64,000 bases of DNA, taken from assembly GCF_018122735.1 (NCBI RefSeq), contig NZ_JAGRRD010000001.1:1442375-1506374 (forward strand), written 5' to 3'. The DNA is from Azoarcus sp. L1K30 (GTDB taxonomy: Bacteria; Pseudomonadota; Gammaproteobacteria; Burkholderiales; Rhodocyclaceae). Under the pieces are notes generated by a model that had not been told where the DNA came from, did no database searches, and saw only the letters and a list, made by a program, of their open reading frames with translations. Shown one piece after another: positions 1,885-14,576 of the stretch; the stretch's first letter is position 1; each line of letters opens with the position of its first letter. A program made the translations under genes and the position numbers.

Positions 1885-2360
1885 TCGACGATCTCCACCG
1901 GTGTGCCTGCGCTCACCAGATCGAACAGTTCAATGATGTCGTCGTTGCGCATGCGGATGCAGCCATGCGAGCGCGGCACCCCCATCGGCTGATCGTCTCC
2001 GGTGCCGTGGATGTAGATGTAGCGCCGCATGCTGTCGACGAGCCCGCCGCGATTGACGCCCACCTCCTCCCCGCACAACCACAGGATGCGCGACAGAATC
2101 CAGTCCCGACCCGGATGCGCGGCGGCGAAAACGTCGGACCACACCTCGCCGGTCGGACGCCGACCGCGAAAGACCGCGCCCCGCGCGGCCCCCGCACCGA
2201 TACGGGCCCGGATGCGATGACGGCCGCGCGGCGTGCAGCCGCTGTCCATCTGCTCGCCCGCCCCATTGGCGGCGGTCGACACGGCATAGCGACGGATGCA
2301 GCAGGCATTCCCGTCGAACAGTTCAAGGCGCTGCGTGGACAGCGCAATACGGATATACAT
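1881..2360 (-). CDS. L,D-transpeptidase (YkuD domain), no signal peptide seen
   Basis: YkuD-type L,D-transpeptidase. The catalytic signature is complete: HGTGDDQPMGVPRSHGCIRM, with the conserved His and the SHGCIRM cysteine nucleophile. Such enzymes form 3-3 crosslinks in peptidoglycan or attach proteins to it. The start at 2360 gives MYIRIALSTQRLELFDGN, a typical beginning for short YkuD proteins (159 aa); an upstream ATG at 2435 would give 184 aa. No ribosome-binding site decides between them. Neither version has a convincing signal peptide, which is odd for a periplasmic enzyme. It is translationally coupled to the acetyltransferase downstream. Confidence 0.85.
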   Translation of the reverse strand: MYIRIALSTQRLELFDGNACCIRRYAVSTAANGAGEQMDSGCTPRGRHRIRARIGAGAARGAVFRGRRPTGEVWSDVFAAAHPGRDWILSRILWLCGEEVGVNRGGLVDSMRRYIYIHGTGDDQPMGVPRSHGCIRMRNDDIIELFDLVSAGTPVEIVE

Positions 2361-2489
2361 GGCGAAACTCGTGCAGATGCATGGGCCTGCACCAAAGAAG
2401 GAAAGCGCACGTGCCGCCCTCCCGGTGCAAGACATGCGCGCAGTTTAGCCCACACATCCGCCCCGCCGCACCGGGCGCGGCGAATGTGC

Positions 2490-4184
2490 TCAAACCTCCA
2501 CGAGTCGTCGATTGCCGCTTCCGGGCAGCACACCCAGCGTCTTCTCCAGCCTGCTGGTGAATCCAGGGGTTTTCACGCTGGAAACAAAATGCCACTCGGC
2601 CTCGCACGCCGTGGCCGTTGCGGTGACGAGCATGTAGCCGCGTTCGCTGGTATTGGCGTATTTCAAGGGCTCGACAATCTGGACGACGCCGGCCGCCACG
2701 ACGGCCGGGTCATCGGTAATGTACTCTTCGAGGCCCGGTGAAGACACCGAAGTCGTCGCAAACTCGACGCCCACCTGATTGCCATCACTGTCCTGCAGAT
2801 CGTTTGCCCACGCATTGTGCGTATCGCCGGAAAGAACAATGAGATTCTTGTCGTATGCGCGCGCCATTCCAAGCACGGTTTCGCGCGCAACGGCGTAGCC
2901 GTCCCAGGCGTCGAGGTTGTAGGGAATCGAGGGCTGGGACAGCATCGCCAGCTGCTCCGCGGTCAGCGTTTCGGGCGCGGTCTGGGCCTGGGCCGCCAGC
3001 GCCGCGTAGGCACCGAACCCGATTGCCTGGGTTGCGATGGGCGCCGGCAGCCACATCCGCCCCATCACCACCTGCTGGCCGAGTATCTGCCACAGCGCGG
3101 GCGACGCGGCAAACTGCCCCTGCAGCCACGCGCTCTGCTCGGTACCCAGCAGTTGACGCGCTGGATCGGCCATCGCAGCACCGAAGGCCGTGGTGTCGAG
3201 GCTGCCATCCGGGTTCATGAAATCGGCGTAGGCCAGTTGCCGGTCGCGCCCGATGATCCGGGTATCGAGCATGTGCAGGGAGACCAGGCTGCCGAAATCG
3301 AAGCTGCGATAGATGCGCTCCGGATTGGCTGCATCGGCCGTCCGAACGGGCAGCCATTCGTTAAATGCACGGATCGCCGCCGCGCGACGCTCGGTGAACG
3401 CGCCTTCGGTCGCGGGGTCGTGATTCTCGGCGCCGTCCTTCCACGTGTCGTTGGCCACCTCGTGGTCATCCCACACGACGATGAAGGGCGCCCGCGCATG
3501 CAAGGCAAGCAGATCGGGGTCGGTGCGATACTGCGCATGGCGGCGGCGGTAGTCGTCCAGCGTCAGCAGTTCGCCCGCCGGTTCGACCAGACGGCCAAGC
3601 GCCTCGGCGTCAGCCGACGCGTATCCGCCACGCTCGTATTCGTAGATGTAATCGCCGAGGTGGACAACCGCGTCGATATCGTCCCGTGCCGCCACGTCGG
3701 CATACGCGTGAAAGTAGCCGGCCGGATAGTTGGAACAGGAGAACACGGCAAGGCGCACCTGGCTCACATCTCCCGCAGGAAGCGTGCGGGTGCGACCGAC
3801 CGGCGAGGTGACGCTGCCGCACTTGAAGCGAAAATAGTACGACTGGCCGGCCGCCAGACCGGTGGCATCGACCTTGACCGTGAAATCGCCGGCTTCGGCA
3901 GCATTGGCCGTACCACTGGCAACGACGGTGGAGAAGCGATCGTCGGTCGACACCTCCCAAGCCACGTCGACCGTACTCGTGATGCCGCTCACCCGGGTCC
4001 ACAGGATCACCCGGTCGGCCAGGGGATCACCGCTGGCAACACCATGTACGAAACTGGCCTTCGTCTTGTCCCCGTCACTGTCGGAGCCCACACAGCCGCT
4101 CAGCCCGGCTCCGCTTCCGAGGACAAGCGTGGCGAGACCGAGGTCTCGAATGAATTGACGGCGGGCAGGCTTGATCGGCTGCAT
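2490..4184 (-). CDS. phoD: PhoD-family alkaline phosphatase/phosphodiesterase, Tat lipoprotein
   Basis: About 564 aa. The N-terminus has a twin-arginine signal (RRQFIRDLG at residues 9-17) followed by a hydrophobic stretch ending in the lipobox-like LSGC, so export by Tat and lipid anchoring are likely. The metal-binding residues of the PhoD family are visible: CSNYPAGYFHAYADVAAR, HLGDYIYEY, VVWDDHEVANDTW and LSGDTHNAW. The family hydrolyses phosphomonoesters and diesters with Ca/Fe cofactors. Start: an AAAGGG box lies 8 bases before the ATG at 4184; the ATG at 4190 is too close to it. It stands alone, divergent from the island at 4.8 kb. I found no clear Pho box upstream. Confidence 0.92.
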   Translation of the reverse strand: MQPIKPARRQFIRDLGLATLVLGSGAGLSGCVGSDSDGDKTKASFVHGVASGDPLADRVILWTRVSGITSTVDVAWEVSTDDRFSTVVASGTANAAEAGDFTVKVDATGLAAGQSYYFRFKCGSVTSPVGRTRTLPAGDVSQVRLAVFSCSNYPAGYFHAYADVAARDDIDAVVHLGDYIYEYERGGYASADAEALGRLVEPAGELLTLDDYRRRHAQYRTDPDLLALHARAPFIVVWDDHEVANDTWKDGAENHDPATEGAFTERRAAAIRAFNEWLPVRTADAANPERIYRSFDFGSLVSLHMLDTRIIGRDRQLAYADFMNPDGSLDTTAFGAAMADPARQLLGTEQSAWLQGQFAASPALWQILGQQVVMGRMWLPAPIATQAIGFGAYAALAAQAQTAPETLTAEQLAMLSQPSIPYNLDAWDGYAVARETVLGMARAYDKNLIVLSGDTHNAWANDLQDSDGNQVGVEFATTSVSSPGLEEYITDDPAVVAAGVVQIVEPLKYANTSERGYMLVTATATACEAEWHFVSSVKTPGFTSRLEKTLGVLPGSGNRRLVEV

Positions 4185-4832
4185 GGACATGACCCTTTGT
4201 GAATGGAGCGCATAGGGTATGTCTCGCGCTTGACGGGACCATGACGGTGACGGCGCCTTCGTTCGCTGCGCGGCGGGCGGGGTGCGGATGACGCGTGGGC
4301 AGTGGCCGGGCGCGGGGCGGATCTCGTGAGCCTGTGGAGGTGGTGGGTTATTGGTCGGATAGCGTTGAGTTCTGGTGTCGGAGTGGGTAAACATGGACGG
4401 GCCGGGCCGGCTGCCTCCGTCTGTTCGCGCTAATGGATCGCGGACTGGTGCCTGCCCTCTGCTGAGGTTCGAACTGTCTGAGGCCGAGAGACGAGAAAGC
4501 AATGCGCGACAGCTGTTGATTTCCTACCGACTTTGAGGCGGCAATTTGTCGATCGGAGCTGTCAGCCCGACGAGTCCATTTAACCTACAACCTCGGACCC
4601 CGAGCGGTCAGTCGGGCTTCAGTAAGCAGAAATCAAAGCGATGCGTCAGACTACAACGCATGCCTCCTTGCAGACCCGATAAACATGCTAGTACCACCCC
4701 ACCGGCGCAACTTGCAAGACGGCCTTGTGCGCGGGAGCAATTGCGATGTCTAGCCACGTCCGGGAACAAGACGCACGCCGAGGCCGTCCCGATGTACTAG
4801 AATCACGCGACGCTTAGGGAGAAAAAGTAAGA
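4185..4832. other. Intergenic region with left boundary of low-GC island
   Basis: 648 bases without a supported gene. The first 300 or so bases are GC-rich like the flanking chromosome; from about 4500 on the sequence becomes more AT-rich and stays so to about 9.8 kb, so the left edge of the island is probably near 4450-4550. An 84-codon reading frame at 4546-4800 has no family features or good ribosome-binding site and I do not call it. A possible -10 (TAGAAT at 4797-4802) precedes the operon, without a clear -35. The AGGGAG at 4816-4821 is the ribosome-binding site of the methylase gene. Confidence 0.5.
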
Positions 4833-5642
4833 ATGACAAGCGATGCTCCGGTGAAGCCAGTGTTGAGATGGGCAGGAAGTAAAAGGCAGATACTTCCGAA
4901 ACTGACCAGCCTGTCACCACATATAACAGGGCGCTACATTGAACCGTTTTGCGGGTCTGCCTGCCTGTTTCTAGCTCTAAATCCAAGTCGCGCCCTGCTT
5001 GGTGACGTGAACCCGCATTTGGTTTCCGCATATAGAACGCTTCGAGCAAGGCCAGAAACCGTCGCATCCGTCTTGGGAGGTTGGACTGCTAGTAAAGAAA
5101 CATACCTCCACTTGCGCGCCTTACCGCCGGGAATGGACGACACTTTCGATGCGGCGAAATTTCTTTACCTGAACCGCTACTGCTTTAACGGTGTATATCG
5201 CGAGAACCGCCAAGGACAGTTTAACGTTCCATTCGGCGGATATCGAACTGGCACGCTGCCAAGCGTGGAGCACCTTCGTCAATTTTCGGCTCGGTTGCAA
5301 AACGCAGAACTGTACTGCGGTGACTTTTCGCATGCTGTCCAAGAAGCAACTGCGGGCGATTTCATCTACCTGGACCCGCCGTATTACTACGGCAGCGTCC
5401 GCAACCGAGGTGAATACGGTTGGAACGCGTTCTCCGACACCGATGTCGAGAGATTGATTGAACTGGTGCGATCGGCTCATGAGCGCGGCGTCAGAATTCT
5501 AATTTCATACAATCAAGCTCACTCCCTGCGCAAAGCACTGCCAGGCTGGTTACTCACATACGCTCTCGTTCGGCGAAGCGTCGCCGGATTTTCGAAGGGA
5601 CGCAAATCAGTGCGAGAGTATCAGCTCCGCAACTATGGGTAG
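4833..5642 (+). CDS. Dam-family DNA N6-adenine methyltransferase
   Basis: 269 aa, close to the usual 270-280 aa of Dam enzymes. Motifs appear in the Dam (alpha-group) order: RWAGSK (SAM-binding motif X, residues 12-17), EPFCGSACLF (motif I, 37-46) and the catalytic DPPY at 181-184 in YLDPPYYYG. The central FLYLNRYCFNGVYRENRQGQFNVP block is also typical of Dam. The target is probably GATC or a related short site, but specificity cannot be read off. First gene of the four-gene island operon, with AGGGAG 11 bases before the ATG. No cognate restriction endonuclease is adjacent. It could mark self DNA for the neighbours or be a solitary methylase of phage or plasmid origin. Confidence 0.93.
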   Translation: MTSDAPVKPVLRWAGSKRQILPKLTSLSPHITGRYIEPFCGSACLFLALNPSRALLGDVNPHLVSAYRTLRARPETVASVLGGWTASKETYLHLRALPPGMDDTFDAAKFLYLNRYCFNGVYRENRQGQFNVPFGGYRTGTLPSVEHLRQFSARLQNAELYCGDFSHAVQEATAGDFIYLDPPYYYGSVRNRGEYGWNAFSDTDVERLIELVRSAHERGVRILISYNQAHSLRKALPGWLLTYALVRRSVAGFSKGRKSVREYQLRNYG

Positions 5643-5652
5643 GAGCCGGCGC

Positions 5653-6840
5653 ATGAACCCAAGAGTCACATTTGCGGTATTGAGCGACCTTCATGCCGCC
5701 CCAAAAAGTAGCGACCCGAAGGGAACCGAGGTGAAGCTATATTCGGACGGTGACAGCTTTGGGAAGCATGATAATCCTCTATCGTCACTTTACGAACTTA
5801 TCAGTCGGGAACCATTGTCTGCAGACTTTGTAGTATGCCCTGGTGATATGACAAATCGCGCTGACGGAGGTGCGCTAAAGTACGTATGGGAACAATTACA
5901 TAACCTAAGGGCGAAGCTCAACGCCCAGCAGGTTATAGCGACCGTCGGCAACCATGACGTAGACTCTCGCTGTCACGATGTGGGAACTATCCCTCGCGAA
6001 GCCCTAATGCGACTAATACCGAGATTCCCAATTCCCGTCGATACACACGCCGACCATTTTTGGGCCCACGGTTACTTCCTGACGACCATTGGTATGGTTC
6101 GCTTTCTCGTTCTCAATTCGTCCTGGTTGCATGAGCATCGAGACGAACTTGAGAGAGGCTCAGTGACAAATTATACCTTGGAAAAACTACGCCAAGACCT
6201 AGAAATGCACCCCGTCGCTGCATTCAATGTCGCAGTATGTCATCACCACCCTCACGTGCACAGCGACCTTGATCTTGGCGGTGACATTATGTTAAACGGT
6301 CAAAAATTCCTTGATGTCTTGTCGGCAGACGCCGCATGGCTAGTCATTCATGGACACAAGCATCATCCAAAGATCGAGTTGGCCCAAGGGGAGTTTCAGC
6401 AACCCATCGTTCTTGCATGCGGCAGCTTTTCAGGAAAGCTTGAAGGAGCGAACGCCACTGTTTCCCGTAACTATTTTCACATGGTGCACGCTGAGAAATT
6501 TGGGCAGGACGCCGAATTGAGGGGCGTTGTTGAGTCATGGAATTGGGTGTCAGGCTTAGGGTGGGAACGTTATGGAAACGCAAACGCCACATTTCCTAGC
6601 CGTCTCGGTTTTGGATTCGGAGGTAGCATTCAGGAGTTGGTGCGTAAAGTGGCTTCGTCAATGGGTGCTCATCAGCTGAAGAGATGGGAGGAGATTGTGA
6701 CGTTACAGCCCGATTTGGCGCACCTCACGCCTCGTAAGTTGAATGCTCTCTGCACAGAACTTCAAGTTCGACACGGCATAGTGATAGCACGAGACGAGAC
6801 AGGACTTCCGTCCGAACTCGGGGTAAGGTCAACATGCTGA
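5653..6840 (+). CDS. Calcineurin-like metallophosphoesterase of a four-gene island operon
   Basis: 395 aa. The two-metal phosphoesterase motifs are all present: SDLH (D12, H14), PGDMTN (D65), GNHD (N100-D102), the H-rich CHHHPH (197-201) and HGHKH (233-237). The catalytic domain fills about residues 1-245; the last 150 residues are of unknown fold. Start: AGGAG at 5641-5645 lies 7 bases before the ATG at 5653; an ATG at 5635 would overlap the methylase gene. Substrate unknown: relatives act on nucleic acids (Mre11/SbcD), cyclic nucleotides or phosphoproteins. Codon use is far more A/T-rich than in the flanking genes. It ends within the start of the ATPase gene (7-base overlap), so the two are coupled. 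Confidence 0.85.
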   Translation: MNPRVTFAVLSDLHAAPKSSDPKGTEVKLYSDGDSFGKHDNPLSSLYELISREPLSADFVVCPGDMTNRADGGALKYVWEQLHNLRAKLNAQQVIATVGNHDVDSRCHDVGTIPREALMRLIPRFPIPVDTHADHFWAHGYFLTTIGMVRFLVLNSSWLHEHRDELERGSVTNYTLEKLRQDLEMHPVAAFNVAVCHHHPHVHSDLDLGGDIMLNGQKFLDVLSADAAWLVIHGHKHHPKIELAQGEFQQPIVLACGSFSGKLEGANATVSRNYFHMVHAEKFGQDAELRGVVESWNWVSGLGWERYGNANATFPSRLGFGFGGSIQELVRKVASSMGAHQLKRWEEIVTLQPDLAHLTPRKLNALCTELQVRHGIVIARDETGLPSELGVRSTC

Positions 6841-8705
6841 AAATCGAGAGATCAAGCCTCGCAATCAACGCGGAGGCGTTTAACGCTAAATACCTTGGGC
6901 CGACAGAGGTCGCACGCGGCTTTGTATACTCCACCCATTTCGAGCAGCTTGCTGGCGACTATCATGCGGTACTCATCGGACCAAGAGGTAGCGGCAAGAC
7001 AACATTACTTAAGATGCTTCAGCCGAGCGCACTTGCCGCTTGGTCTGGTCCGAGGGCGGGGGCCTTTCGCGCTGCTGTCAAGTACAGCGGCGTATTCATT
7101 GCTTCCGATATAAGCTGGTCTAAGCAGCTGAATTCCCTTGGCTATGGGAAGCTGAACGAGCAGAACCACAGGGCGCTCGTCTTGGCATGCTTCACAACGC
7201 ACGTCATTCATTCCGTATTGGAAACGATGGCTTCGCGTGCAAACTCCAAGACCGAATACCGAGCCGTCAGTCTAAACGGCGACCAAGAGGCACTCTTAGC
7301 TCGAGATCTAGCTGCTGCGCTCAGAGTCAAGCCCGCAATTCCGAGTTTGCTCGCTATTCGCCAAGCGCTGCGAAACCGTCTTTCCGACATTCGAGCGCTT
7401 GCGAACTCCTGCAGTCTGCTTGAAGATGAACAATGCTCGAGGGAGTTAGCCTCGATGGACTATCTTCATCTCGACTTTCTTGATATATGCTCGAACATAT
7501 GCGCGACGTTTAATGAAGCGGTTGGAGAGTCTGGCGCCAGATGGGGACTTCTTTTTGACGAACTCGAGACCGCTCCGGATTGGATTATTGACCAACTGTT
7601 CTCCGCTCTTCGCACCTCTGACCCGAGGCTCTACCTTAAGCTCGCCATCAGCCCTGTTTCCGCAACTGCCTATAGAGCACTATTCAAGCAAGATGGCGCA
7701 TCCCTAGGCCACGACTATCATCAAATTCGTCTTTGGTATTCCGACCGCACTGATTCAAAAGCATTTTGTCGAGCCCTGTGGTCTTCTCTGGTGCAAAAGC
7801 ACGGGCTAGACATTTCGGCCGAAGAGGCATTAGGGCGCTCTGTTTTCGAGCCAAGAGACTCCCGCGGTGCTCGCAGACGCAGCCCGTACAGCCCGGGCGA
7901 GCATTGGCACAAAGTGTTTACCTCTCTTGCGAAGAAGGACCGCTCATTTATTTCTTTTCTCAGACAAAAGGGAATAGACCTGACTACAGCTGAGAGTCAG
8001 TGGGAACATCAGAGGGACAGTGTCCTTCGCAAAGCCGCCCCTATCGCCGCTCTGCGAGATTTCTTCTTGCATCAATCAAAAGCTGGCATGGTCTCCGCGC
8101 GACAGCGTAAAACGTTAGAGCTTTACACCGGAGCTGATTCGATATTTGCAATTACCGAAGGAAATCCACGATGGTTTATCGGTCTAGCATCACCTCTCGT
8201 TAACTTTCTTGTACGAAGCGGCGTCAAAAAGGTGCCCAATGCAGAACAGGCGAAAGAAATTGATGCATTCGCAGACCGTCTAATTGCATTATTAAGGACA
8301 ATTCCCGTAGAGTCCGCGGGCGAGCGGGGAGATGACTTGCCGCTTGATTCACTACTCGGTGAAATTGGAGCCAAATTCCACTCGGAACTTGTTGAGACGA
8401 GATTCAGCATTGACCCGGCGCAGAGCTTCATTGTGGATGACAGTGTTTCGGAAAGAACACGAGAGCTGCTTGCATCCGCAGTGAACCGTGGCGCAGTAAT
8501 GCTCGTGGATGAGTCGTCGTCAAAGGCGATTGTTGGGGAGATGCTGAATGCGAAGTTGAGATTGAGTTTTCTTCTGGCGGCAAAATATGGCCTACTCATT
8601 CGAAAAGGGAAAGCCGTACGTCTTTCTAGCCTTCTACCCGTTCGCGAACCCGTGCCTTCAGCTCGCGTGACTGGCCCTGCGCAGCTCAGGTTGGATATGG
8701 ACTAA
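6834..8705 (+). CDS. ORC/CDC6-like P-loop ATPase of the island operon
   Basis: 623 aa. A clear Walker A, GPRGSGKTT (residues 49-57), and a Walker B, LLFDE (239-243), are separated by about 180 residues, with an acidic DELE after the B strand. The later block ITEGNPRWFIGLASPLVNF resembles the lid/sensor region of STAND/ORC-CDC6-type AAA+ proteins, and the remaining C-terminus (about 480-623) may hold a winged-helix-like segment. I recall RefSeq calling similar proteins 'ORC-CDC6 family AAA ATPase'; such bacterial proteins occur in mobile and defence loci. No transmembrane segment or nuclease motif is seen. It overlaps the phosphoesterase gene by 7 bases and is followed after one base by the fourth gene. 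Confidence 0.78.
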   Translation: MLKIERSSLAINAEAFNAKYLGPTEVARGFVYSTHFEQLAGDYHAVLIGPRGSGKTTLLKMLQPSALAAWSGPRAGAFRAAVKYSGVFIASDISWSKQLNSLGYGKLNEQNHRALVLACFTTHVIHSVLETMASRANSKTEYRAVSLNGDQEALLARDLAAALRVKPAIPSLLAIRQALRNRLSDIRALANSCSLLEDEQCSRELASMDYLHLDFLDICSNICATFNEAVGESGARWGLLFDELETAPDWIIDQLFSALRTSDPRLYLKLAISPVSATAYRALFKQDGASLGHDYHQIRLWYSDRTDSKAFCRALWSSLVQKHGLDISAEEALGRSVFEPRDSRGARRRSPYSPGEHWHKVFTSLAKKDRSFISFLRQKGIDLTTAESQWEHQRDSVLRKAAPIAALRDFFLHQSKAGMVSARQRKTLELYTGADSIFAITEGNPRWFIGLASPLVNFLVRSGVKKVPNAEQAKEIDAFADRLIALLRTIPVESAGERGDDLPLDSLLGEIGAKFHSELVETRFSIDPAQSFIVDDSVSERTRELLASAVNRGAVMLVDESSSKAIVGEMLNAKLRLSFLLAAKYGLLIRKGKAVRLSSLLPVREPVPSARVTGPAQLRLDMD

Positions 8706-8706
8706 A

Positions 8707-9648
8707 ATGCTCGCACTAACTTCAATTCAGAATTGTGAGACTTCAACCTCAATGGAGGTCGATATATTTATTGCCGCATGCGGCTATGAGGGAAGAGCGA
8801 TAGATGCCTCCAAGCGTTTTCATAATCAAGCGAAAAGAAAACTTGCCATTGGTTTTGCGTTGCAACAGGAGCTTGAATATGGCAGAAACAAAGAATGGTT
8901 CGAGTCAGCCGGATTTGAATTTGTAGAGGTGAGCGACGATAATTTTCGGGAGACCATTAACCAATATCTCCGCCAAAGCAAACCGGAGCAAGACACGTTC
9001 GCAGTAGAAGTCGACATATCCTGTTTCAATCGATTCCGTTTGGCACATTTAGTTGACGCATTGCGCTCACTCCCAAGTCAGGAAGTAAAGGTCACATTTC
9101 GCTACTCAATTGCAGAGTTCACGCCACCGTCAGAGGATACAGCTCCTACTGTCAAGATGGAGCCTGTAATTCCTCAGATTGCGGGATGGACGACCAGACC
9201 AGACCGACCGCCTGCCGCTGTTGTTGGGCTTGGATATGAACCGAACAAGGCTATTGGGGTCGTTGATCATCTAGAAATCAACAACGCTACTTGGGCATAC
9301 TATCCACTTGGTCCAATACCGGAGTATTACCAAAGGGTGCTCGAGGCCAACCAGTCGCTCTTGGGGATTATTCAGGCAGATGGAAGATGCCAGCCTTATG
9401 ACTTGAATAATCCAGCGCAACTGTTCAAGGAAATTAACTCTATAGTCGATATGTTGAAGCCTCACTTCAATATCGTTTTAATTCCTTTCGGCCCTAAGCT
9501 TTTCGCACTCGTTACTCTATTGATAGCTTGCTCACACGATGACGTCGGCGTTTGGAGAGTAAGCAGCGGCTCTCTTGAGACGCCAGTGGATCGCAAGCCA
9601 TCTGGGCACATCATCTCCATTTCGGTTATCTTTCGCGCCAACGGCTAG
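8707..9648 (+). CDS. Unrecognised 313-aa protein, fourth gene of the island operon
   Basis: I do not recognise this family. Visible features: a hydrophobic strand followed by a glycine loop near the N-terminus (VDIFIAACGYEGRA, residues 18-31), an acidic strand EVDISCFNRFRLAHLVDAL, a second glycine turn VVGLGYEPNKAIGV, and a late hydrophobic strand VLIPFGPKLFALVTLLIA. The alternation of strands and helices suggests one or two Rossmann-like alpha/beta domains. There is no signal peptide or membrane segment. Start at 8707, one base after the ATPase stop; a second ATG at 8752 would remove 15 residues that look poorly conserved. Base composition is the lowest of the operon (24 G+C of 60 in 8701-8760). 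An intrinsic terminator follows 12 bases after the stop. It may be the effector or sensor of the system. Confidence 0.75.
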   Translation: MLALTSIQNCETSTSMEVDIFIAACGYEGRAIDASKRFHNQAKRKLAIGFALQQELEYGRNKEWFESAGFEFVEVSDDNFRETINQYLRQSKPEQDTFAVEVDISCFNRFRLAHLVDALRSLPSQEVKVTFRYSIAEFTPPSEDTAPTVKMEPVIPQIAGWTTRPDRPPAAVVGLGYEPNKAIGVVDHLEINNATWAYYPLGPIPEYYQRVLEANQSLLGIIQADGRCQPYDLNNPAQLFKEINSIVDMLKPHFNIVLIPFGPKLFALVTLLIACSHDDVGVWRVSSGSLETPVDRKPSGHIISISVIFRANG

Positions 9649-9660
9649 CTGACAAAATAG

Positions 9661-9685
9661 CGCTACTCAGAGTAGCGTCGATTTT
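9661..9685 (+). terminator. Intrinsic terminator closing the four-gene island operon
   Basis: Inverted repeat CGCTAC / GTAGCG (9661-9666 and 9672-9677) followed by TCGATTTT. It begins 12 bases after the stop of the fourth gene and supports reading 4833-9648 as one transcription unit. Confidence 0.7.
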
Positions 9686-10113
9686 GACCGTACTCGCACT
9701 GGCTAACGGCAGGTAAGTGGCGCATGGCTGGCCACGCTCGCTGAACGCCAATAGTCGCTCAGGCCGAATTATGTGAATTGTTCTTCTACTTTTATTTTCA
9801 AGGGAAGGACGGGGATGGGTCTTGCTGGTGGCACGTGAACCCCATCCCCTCACGAGTCCATACTTCTCTACTACTTCTGCTCGGAGCTCTACTCCCTGAA
9901 ACCCATCCCCCTCCCAGCCTCCCCCTTGAAGGGGGAGGGGCTCCGTTCCGTCCCCTTCCTTAAGAATACAAGCGGGAAGCGCCTCCGGACTCGATCAGCC
10001 GCCGTTCCCGGAACGTACTCTGGACTGGAGTCGCGGCATCGCAATCGAATTGTCCTCGCCTGATTGAAGACAGGTTCAACTATCTCAGTCCCGCAGCATC
10101 ACCAAGCCCAGCC
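9686..10113. other. Intergenic region, right boundary of low-GC island
   Basis: No gene is supported here. AT-rich sequence continues to about 9800, then the G/C-rich palindromic repeat (9811-9940) follows, and chromosomal composition returns before the tadA stop at 10114. I saw no integrase remnant, tRNA fragment or obvious direct repeat matching the left edge of the island. Confidence 0.45.
9811..9940. repeat. REP-like G/C-rich palindromic intergenic repeat, copy cluster 1
   Basis: Contains three copies of the core CCCATCCCC: inverted at about 9811-9819, direct at 9841-9849 and 9902-9910. The last is followed by a perfect palindrome with 10-base arms, CCTCCCCCTT / AAGGGGGAGG, around a central G (9918-9938). 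The same architecture recurs at 19.8-19.98 kb, so this is a dispersed element and not part of either neighbouring gene. It can form a strong hairpin in RNA from either strand and may act as an attenuator or as a small MITE/REP element. Confidence 0.75.
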
Positions 10114-13453: not shown

Positions 13454-14443
13454 TCAGGGCTTCGACTCGCCGCCGCCGGTGGGCGCGTCTGGACCGGCAC
13501 GCCCCACCGTGAACTCGATCTCCGCGACCCCGGTGGACACGCTCCCCGACTGCATCCGGAAGTGAATGAGGGGCCCGTCCACCGTCCCCCAATAGTGATG
13601 CTCCAGCTCGCTCACGTCGGACGCCCCCAGGCGGGCCGTGCTGCGTGTCATGAAACGCAGGCTGCCATTTTCCAGGCGGCCGGACTCGATCGCACGTGGC
13701 ACCCCCAGAAACCCGGCCGTGCCGCCGAGCCGTGTGCCGTCGACGCTGAACCTGAAGCGTTCCAGCTGATTCACCCCCCATGGGTATTCCACCTGCCCCG
13801 ACCACTCCCCGGCAATGCCGTCCTGCCCACCGTCGACGCCGCTTCGCAACGCAAGCCAGGCGAGCAGAACGGCCAGCAGCACGACGACGCCGAGGCCAAG
13901 GCCAAGTCTCAGTCCATGGCGGCCCATGCGCGCGACCCTGGCCGACAGTGCCGCCAGGCCCCAGGCGTTGGCGCTACCAGCTGCAGATCGATTCTCGCCC
14001 TGCAGCACTTGAGCCAAGCTGGCGAGGTCTGCGCGCCACGACGCATCACGCAGGTCCACCTCCTGGCGCGAAGCGAGCGCCCGGATGGATGCCGGCAGCA
14101 GCGTCGCCTCCGGCATCTGCGCGCCGCCGACCAGTACCGGCACGACAGGCTTGCCTGCCGCCAGCGCGGATTCAATCTCGCGACGGACGAAATCGTCGGC
14201 GCGGTCCAGTCGCCGCAGGCCGCTGCTGTCGGCGTCGAGCCACCGCGGCCCGATCAGCACCAACACCCAGTCCACTTGCGCCAGCCTCGCGTCGATGACG
14301 CGCGCAAAGTCTTCACCGGGGACGATGTCGTCGACATCACGGAACACCGAATCGGCACCAAAGCGCTGCTCCAGTGCATCCGCAAGCCTGCCTGCATGGC
14401 CCGCGCTGTCGTCGCGACGATAGGAAACGAATACATGCACCAT
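13454..14443 (-). CDS. Membrane-anchored TIR-domain protein
   Basis: 329 aa from the ATG at 14443, which has AGGAG 7 bases upstream (the adjacent ATG at 14446 is the alternative). Residues 1-130 are a bacterial TIR domain: HVFVSYRRDDSAGHAGRL, VFRDVDDIVPGEDF, VDWVLVLIGPRWL and DDFVRREIESALAAGKPVVPVLV; the Glu in REIE is at the position of the conserved TIR glutamate. A linker is followed by a transmembrane helix (about 185-207: GLGLGVVVLLAVLLAWLAL) and a beta-rich C-terminal domain (GIAGEWSGQVEYPWGVNQLERF) that should lie outside the cytoplasm. TIR domains often cleave NAD+ or mediate signalling; activity here is inferred. Possible partner: the convergent LOG-like gene. Confidence 0.85.
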   Translation of the reverse strand: MVHVFVSYRRDDSAGHAGRLADALEQRFGADSVFRDVDDIVPGEDFARVIDARLAQVDWVLVLIGPRWLDADSSGLRRLDRADDFVRREIESALAAGKPVVPVLVGGAQMPEATLLPASIRALASRQEVDLRDASWRADLASLAQVLQGENRSAAGSANAWGLAALSARVARMGRHGLRLGLGLGVVVLLAVLLAWLALRSGVDGGQDGIAGEWSGQVEYPWGVNQLERFRFSVDGTRLGGTAGFLGVPRAIESGRLENGSLRFMTRSTARLGASDVSELEHHYWGTVDGPLIHFRMQSGSVSTGVAEIEFTVGRAGPDAPTGGGESKP

Positions 14444-14576
14444 CATCGGGCTCCTGCAAACCGCGCACGATCGGGCGCCCTGCAAGCTGATTGAAGCACG
14501 CGGCTGCCGGTGTTGCCAACGCGAACGCCGGATGTACCGTCATGCGGGCTCGGGATGCCATTGACTTCAGCGTGGT

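Follow-up and report, generated by a model that had tools for sequence, protein, structure and literature searches.

A mobile cassette in Azoarcus sp. L1K30 joins a Dam-family methylase, a calcineurin-like phosphoesterase, an ORC/CDC6-like ATPase and a predicted CARF protein: a candidate defence-type module

The DNA of interest is a 64,000 nt stretch of the Azoarcus sp. L1K30 genome (NZ_JAGRRD010000001.1, positions 1,442,375–1,506,374, forward strand), hereafter the window; all positions are given in window numbering. A first-pass annotation had drawn attention to a complete two-metal phosphoesterase gene (5653–6840) overlapping an ATPase gene (6834–8705) by seven bases, and had proposed that the pair encodes an analogue of SbcCD. 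Both open reading frames (ORFs) are present at these coordinates, and the overlap is as described: the first base of the ATPase ATG is 6834, the last of the phosphoesterase TGA 6840. The products are nevertheless two separate proteins, not a pair "fused in translation" as that annotation put it. The phosphoesterase has two possible starts, at 5635 (401 amino acids, aa) and at 5653 (395 aa), the latter directly preceded by GGAG. The pair is flanked by two outer genes that the annotation did not contain—one for a Dam-family methylase (4833–5642), one for a CARF protein (8707–9648)—and the four together form a single-strand cassette with the following features:

4833..9648, + strand: whole cassette, four genes, 51.1% GC
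4833..5642, + strand: Dam-family (D12 class) adenine-N6 DNA methyltransferase, 269 aa (TIGR00571 at 3e-59, over cut-off; PF02086 at 2e-43)
~5373–5384, + strand: catalytic DPPY of the methylase, kept in 60/60 cassette Dams
5653..6840, + strand: calcineurin-like two-metal phosphoesterase, 395 aa (PF00149 at 8e-11; AlphaFold2 pLDDT 92.4)
6607..6762, + strand: C-terminal winged helix of the phosphoesterase, PF24408 wHTH-Calcineurin_assc (4e-7; 30.3 bits, cut-off 27)
6834..8705, + strand: ORC-CDC6-like P-loop ATPase, 623 aa (PF24389 at 8e-110)
6978–7001 and 7548–7568, + strand: Walker A and Walker B of the ATPase, residues invariant in 75/75 aligned ATPases
8707..9648, + strand: stand-alone tandem-CARF protein by predicted fold, 313 aa (PADLOC CARF6 at 3e-99; AlphaFold2 pLDDT 95.2)

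The cassette is laterally acquired, as evidenced by its low GC content (compared with 65.9% in the left flank and 64.5% in the right), an empty site in related genomes, and a patchy spread. The 8.2-kb interval that holds it (1885–10113) is missing between the GNAT gene and tadA in four congeners: in all four examined, tadA lies ~0.5 kb from the GNAT gene (8.2 kb in the window), and no trace of the cassette is seen. The same missing interval includes a PhoD-like phosphatase gene and a further short gene (1885–4502), marking an accessory-gene site; since the phosphatase gene is also absent from the congeners, the insertion may have come in steps. Repeat and promoter scans of the cassette borders returned nothing usable. 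A gene for a TIR-domain protein (PF13676, 6e-15) lies ~3.8 kb beyond the cassette, at 13454–14485 on the - strand.

With the ATPase alignment as query, a scan of species-representative genomes recovered at least 76 loci, four of them weak partial matches; those listed fall in Pseudomonadota, Bacteroidota, Actinomycetota, Acidobacteriota, Verrucomicrobiota, Planctomycetota and other phyla. ORFs were called mechanically. In all 74 loci that hold the phosphoesterase, ATPase and CARF6 genes (window included), the three are adjacent and co-directional, and a 4-base overlap is the spacing seen most often (39/74 phosphoesterase–ATPase and 27/74 ATPase–CARF junctions, by mechanical ORF starts). This constant one-strand order and close spacing indicate that the phosphoesterase–ATPase pairing is not due to chance; the coupling is old and general. 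Loci were selected through the ATPase, so the frequency of lone phosphoesterases was taken from plasmid and class-genome scans. In the records searched, phosphoesterase homologues do not occur mostly without the ATPase, the pattern that the first-pass annotation had named as speaking against a link: the same five of 72,556 plasmid records are hit by phosphoesterase, ATPase and CARF searches alike (E≤1e-5), and a profile of the phosphoesterase run over 369 class genomes finds only the window's own (E≤1e-15).

The wider gene content was classified for 83 loci in which the ATPase ORF is present (including one record that appears twice; neighbours counted within 6 kb). Dam, phosphoesterase and CARF6 are all present in 60, with Dam downstream or antisense in four; 15 lack Dam only, one lacks CARF only (at a contig end), six have CARF without this phosphoesterase, and one weak ATPase match has none of the partners. 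CARF is therefore found in 81/83. PF24389 is patchily distributed (7/369 class genomes, 9/398 phylum genomes). The four genes occur in the same order on Cupriavidus, Sinorhizobium and Methylobacterium plasmids; a Pseudoalteromonas plasmid carries the cassette without Dam, with a 614-aa protein lacking a Pfam match in its place (L015, 3892–5736). The cassettes of L043, on a contig filed under a Nitrosomonadales metagenome-assembled genome (MAG), and of L040, in an Alteromonadaceae MAG, are nearly identical (branches of 0.04 and 0.03), reflecting either recent transfer or a mis-binned contig. An origin of the cassette in viruses was considered and rejected: in limited searches, none of the 64 pattern stretches from viral_contigs was confirmed as an ATPase relative, and 50,697 phage records yielded none either (E≤1e-5).

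The ATPase is ORC/CDC6-like and not SMC-like, as the first-pass annotation had recognized. PF24389 covers residues 14–597 of 623 (model positions 4–571 of 571; 368.6 bits, cut-off 27). The Walker A (G49, R51, G52, G54, K55, T56) and Walker B (D242, E243) residues are invariant in the 75 aligned ATPases, and are separated by ~185 residues without a long SMC-type insert. In a PDB search with the ATPase profile, most matches are P-loop stretches; the top one is an ABC-F protein (4e-5), and ORC4 comes at 0.004.

The phosphoesterase carries the two-metal motif of class III (Rv0805-like) phosphodiesterases (D-x-H, GD, GNHD, H, GHxH), and its metal-site residues (D12, H14, D65, N100, H101, H197, H235, H237) are invariant in 75/75 aligned phosphoesterases, window included. 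By profile and predicted fold, it is nearer to the Rv0805/lmo2642/GpdQ phosphodiesterases than to Mre11/SbcD. Firstly, PDB matches of the 75-member profile run from lmo2642 (2e-17) and Rv0805 (5e-10) to SbcD (2e-4) and Mre11 (3e-4). Secondly, the predicted structure aligns best with lmo2642 (Z 25.4; 283 residues, 3.4 Å), followed by Rv0805 (Z 24.5), SMPDL3A (23.2) and GpdQ (22.4), with Mre11 first appearing at rank 41 (Z 18.4); Foldseek places Rv0805 at rank 1 and Mre11 from rank 29. Rv0805, lmo2642, GpdQ, Mre11 and SbcD all belong to one superfamily with the phosphoesterase, so a nuclease activity is conceivable. The PF24408 winged helix was found in 1/398 phylum genomes—the window's own—which is consistent with, and no proof of, the C-terminal part of the phosphoesterase going with the cassette. 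The score against NCBIfam DS9_1, an anti-phage phosphoesterase family, is 46.7 bits, below the curated cut-off of 420.

These properties bear directly on the proposal of an SbcCD-like DNA-end processing complex that uses a different ATPase. The overlap of the two genes speaks for such a complex. However, the ATPase is ORC-CDC6-like and not of the ABC/SMC type, the phosphoesterase profile lies off the SbcD/Mre11 branch, and the genes are rare, mobile, and linked to a CARF gene and, usually, a DNA methylase gene, with other partners in related pairs. We regard an SbcCD-like complex as highly improbable, and reject the SbcCD reading of the gene pair.

The fourth protein is, with high confidence, a CARF protein by predicted fold. 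No Pfam family matches it over its cut-off, and its sequence matches only the PADLOC CARF6 models; sequence searches of the PDB hit no solved CARF structure, returning only a sorting nexin (E ~0.2) and a designed protein (8e-4). The predicted structure is closest to Can1 (Z 12.6; 230 residues, 4.0 Å), with further matches to Csm6, Cam1, Can2, Cad1, Cap5 and Cap4. Among the 50 fold matches listed, ranks 1–31 are, by their titles, CRISPR/CBASS CARF/SAVED proteins (Z 7.8–12.6), an uncharacterised protein follows at rank 32, and from rank 33 (Z 6.7) other named folds appear; in classing these we take Can1, Can2, Cam1 and Csa3 to contain CARF domains. The assignment uses the re-aligned structure comparison and not Foldseek's first rows, which are mostly SAM methyltransferases at TM ~0.2 and rmsd 17–20 (Cap5 is at rank 7 with TM 0.36, Csm6 at rank 22). 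Residues E28, R30, D103, Y133, G176, E178, N215, P260, G262, P263 and K264 are invariant or nearly so, and a similar G-Y-E motif recurs in each half of the protein, as expected for a tandem. Such a protein would bind a nucleotide-type ligand. The first-pass annotation had the gene pair "possibly gated by DNA or nucleotide"; it is the nucleotide half of this suggestion that fits the predicted CARF fold.

Which of these proteins form the core of the system is suggested by 13 more distant PF24389/CARF6 loci (L016–L021, L108–L114; genome G546, with the same coordinates as G695, was left out). Upstream of the ATPase lies PRTase-CE in four (L016, L108, L112, L113), HD-CE in two (L109, L111) and a divergent phosphoesterase in one (L110). 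In others, a domain is fused to the ATPase itself: a Ser/Thr-kinase domain in two (L019, L020) and a ParA-like domain in one (L017), while L114 shows a weak kinase domain under the cut-off and no CARF match. The contig ends at the partner's position in the remaining two (L018, L021). Given this exchange of partners, ATPase and CARF appear to be the conserved regulatory core, and the phosphoesterase behaves as a swappable effector, one of several modules. Methylases at these loci vary in type: N6 or N4/N6 in L016, L017, L019 and L108 (the neighbour in L020 resembles that of L019 by eye), and C5 in L109 and L114. In L112 (5838–12581) and L113 (6562–13993), PRTase-CE, ATPase and CARF6 genes stand beside genes for HAD-hydrolase-type proteins, with a NADAR protein in the former, a PfkB kinase in the latter, and no methylase seen at either; this branch possibly makes or edits a nucleotide-like compound.

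Partner exchange also bears on a second alternative, namely that the phosphoesterase degrades or trims the CARF ligand, in the manner of ring nucleases, with the effector role falling to the ATPase or to an unlinked protein. A resemblance to cyclic-nucleotide phosphodiesterases, a position beside a CARF gene, and replacement by HD domains (another phosphodiesterase fold) are all compatible with messenger turnover. Yet the PRTase-CE, kinase and ParA-like domains that also replace the phosphoesterase would not degrade a cyclic nucleotide, and no messenger synthase is known; we consider turnover improbable.

The cassette Dam matches DpnM (2e-38) and E. coli Dam (1.5e-32) in the PDB. TIGR00571 was searched in the genomes of 72 cassettes (the window plus 71 loci), with each cassette's own Dam match chosen by hand from its coordinates; 66 cassettes were counted. 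Set aside were (i) L023, L039 and L043, where little contig sequence is left upstream of the remaining genes (a Dam of 242 bits lies on another contig of the L023 genome; the other two genomes have none), and (ii) L027, L029 and L032, alphaproteobacteria without a TIGR00571 match in the genome, in which another D12-class methylase occupies the Dam place with a four-base overlap (L029 by eye). Also outside the count are L037 (the same record as L012) and L012–L015, which are plasmid records with chromosomes beyond the search.

A Dam is encoded elsewhere in the genome for 10/10 cassettes without an adjacent, co-directional methylase (277–314 bits), compared with 5/56 Dam-bearing cassettes (L033, borderline at 115.3 bits; L049, L053, L079 and L090). 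Fisher's test gives 1.4e-8, or 1.4e-6 for a strict set of seven with long upstream sequence (7/7), values that overstate the case because a phylogeny-aware independent-pairs test has only four pairs and is underpowered (p 0.125; strict set, three pairs, p 0.25). Three members of the wide set of ten call for comment: upstream of the phosphoesterase, the contigs of L040 and L081 extend for only ~500–640 bases, and L088 has one Dam ~3 kb away on the other strand (placing it among the loci with Dam within 6 kb in the 83-locus tally) and another on a different contig. This cis/trans pattern is a result of the present analysis. None of the 66 cassettes lacks Dam in both operon and genome; the pattern suggests that a host tolerates the cassette only when the mark is present.

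SeqA was detected in 7/10 Dam-less hosts and in none of 40 other genomes scanned, with the remaining 22 genomes outside that scan. On a quick tree of 70 concatenated phosphoesterase–ATPase–CARF rows, Dam presence or absence needs five changes. The Dam-less groups are (1) L030, (2) L026, (3) Pseudoalteromonas/Vibrio (L085, L086, L076, L081), (4) Aliivibrio/P. rubra/Alteromonadaceae (L058, L052, L040), and (5) Pedobacter L088, on a long branch. Two of them have Dam-bearing near neighbours that lack a second Dam (L073, L065 and L091 for one; L077 and L059 for the other). Thymidylate-synthase-like genes, partly duplicated and named by eye, lie just downstream of two Dam-less cassettes (L058, 10772–11644; L076, 10756–12312).

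GATC is the likely, though unproven, mark. We compared residues at E. coli Dam positions K9, N120, R124 and P134, which presumably contribute to specificity: equivalents of N120 and R124 are kept in 60/60 cassette Dams, and P134 in 58/60. The comparison enters the Dam near L088 twice, once as a cassette row and once, in the other group, as L118; its row L126 derives from the genome of L023, a locus set aside above.

A third alternative is that of a restriction-type nuclease, close to the nuclease with a different motor of the first-pass annotation: the phosphoesterase, driven or loaded by the ATPase, would cut DNA without Dam methylation, in the manner of ATP-dependent restriction-modification systems, and the CARF protein would be an accessory regulator. 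The methylase in the operon, its cis/trans pattern, the winged helix on the phosphoesterase, and membership of the Mre11 superfamily (Z ~18) are in keeping with this. On the other hand, the closest relatives of the phosphoesterase are small-molecule or cyclic-nucleotide phosphodiesterases, its place can be taken by PRTase and kinase domains, which do not cut DNA, and CARF is present in 81/83 ATPase loci (also in 74/74 triads, although these were selected as such). We judge this alternative unlikely, if less so than messenger turnover.

Our preferred reading, which we consider somewhat probable from sequence and predicted structure, is that the cassette is a mobile four-gene defence-type module in which Dam marks self, ATPase and CARF form a gate, and the phosphoesterase is the effector. 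The proposed steps are as follows: (i) the cassette methylase or a host Dam would label the host's DNA as self by methylation, GATC being the most likely site (sequence and the cis/trans pattern point to this); (ii) the ATPase, acting as the switch, and the winged helix of its partner would examine DNA or its state, as the ATPase family suggests; (iii) the tandem-CARF protein would bind a nucleotide-type ligand and set a threshold; and (iv) the phosphoesterase, once released, would act as a two-metal phosphodiesterase on nucleotides or nucleic acid, its substrate being presumed.

Several observations weigh against this defence-type reading. With regard to the mark, independent pairs are few, as described above, and most Dam-less hosts belong to gamma clades with a native Dam. 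The E. coli Dam K9 position is R in 53/60 cassette Dams, making GATC less than certain, and no methylase was seen in 4/13 distant loci (L110–L113; part of their ORFs scanned). Self-targeting might show as a depletion of GATC in cassettes, an idea that was rejected: observed/expected is 0.92 both in cassettes and in their flanks. With regard to the ligand, none of the four cassette genes encodes an enzyme known to make a cyclic nucleotide, and no CD-NTase is among the four genes in the window. SMODS was found in only 5/50 host genomes scanned, the window's included, leaving the ligand without a known source. The Cas10 palm model matches 9/50 host genomes (28–35 bits, cut-off 27), not the window's; it also matches E. 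coli and other controls, and these marginal matches look like GGDEF cross-matches. CBASS or type III CRISPR as the messenger source is thus unsupported in most hosts scanned. Finally, flank defence genes are few, and the defence-island sign is weak at best: PADLOC found ten families with one protein each, including AbiEi, AbiEii, dGTPase, PD-T4-7 and PifA, among 92 cassette-flank proteins, and mad2 (2), mad3 (3) and QatD (1) among 92 control proteins of the same genomes.

The SMODS nucleotidyltransferase match of the window genome lies at G000:C1:2912080-2912496 (43 bits), unlinked to the cassette, and may be a messenger source.

More tentatively, the cassette may represent an immune family that is licensed by methylation, gated by CARF and strictly dependent on GATC methylation in the cell. 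Such a family would shed its own methylase where the host supplies Dam; loss of Dam, or the arrival of unmarked DNA, would trigger a swappable phosphoesterase, HD, PRTase or kinase effector, and the module itself would be the source of the CARF ligand. If true, two usually separate principles of self/non-self discrimination—DNA modification and CARF-type ligand sensing—are joined in one compact unit, and the native dam of Vibrio- or Pseudoalteromonas-type hosts is an antidote to a resident immune module, and hence a genetic handle. For CARF proteins without a recognised messenger synthase beside them, the source of the ligand becomes a direct, testable question.

A literature search found no description of the cassette, including in the portions consulted of PMC12839542, PMC10853773, PMC8195603, PMC4012209 and PMC7824862; we do not claim that it is unpublished. 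Burroughs and Aravind, writing in J Bacteriol in 2020, are said to have predicted immune systems of this sort.

The cassette resembles several known systems in part. Its closest kin by domain are the Pfam families ORC-CDC6-like (PF24389), PRTase-CE (PF24390), HD-CE (PF24391) and wHTH-Calcineurin_assc (PF24408): the ATPase is a full-length PF24389 protein, the phosphoesterase holds PF24408, and PRTase-CE and HD-CE stand beside related ATPases in the distant loci. The first three accessions are consecutive, suggesting one source. With the CBASS and type III CRISPR effectors (Can1, Csm6, Cap4, Cap5), the cassette shares a CARF/SAVED-type fold, in tandem as in Can1; it differs in that its CARF protein has no fused effector domain, that the operon comes without a CD-NTase, and that the host genomes scanned showed SMODS in 5/50 and no convincing Cas10. 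Type II restriction-modification systems and orphan Dam offer a parallel in the Dam-family methylase, which a host Dam seems able to replace; no restriction endonuclease family was recognised among the four cassette genes, which include an ATPase and a CARF protein instead. SbcCD/Mre11-Rad50 likewise pairs a calcineurin-like two-metal phosphoesterase with an ATPase; the cassette ATPase, however, belongs to another clade than the ABC/SMC-type SbcCD ATPase with its long coiled coil, the phosphoesterase sits on a branch other than SbcD/Mre11, and the partners are a CARF protein and a methylase. By profile and by fold, the phosphoesterase matches Rv0805, lmo2642 and GpdQ best; it differs from them in carrying an extra winged helix and in sharing an operon with an ATPase and a CARF protein.

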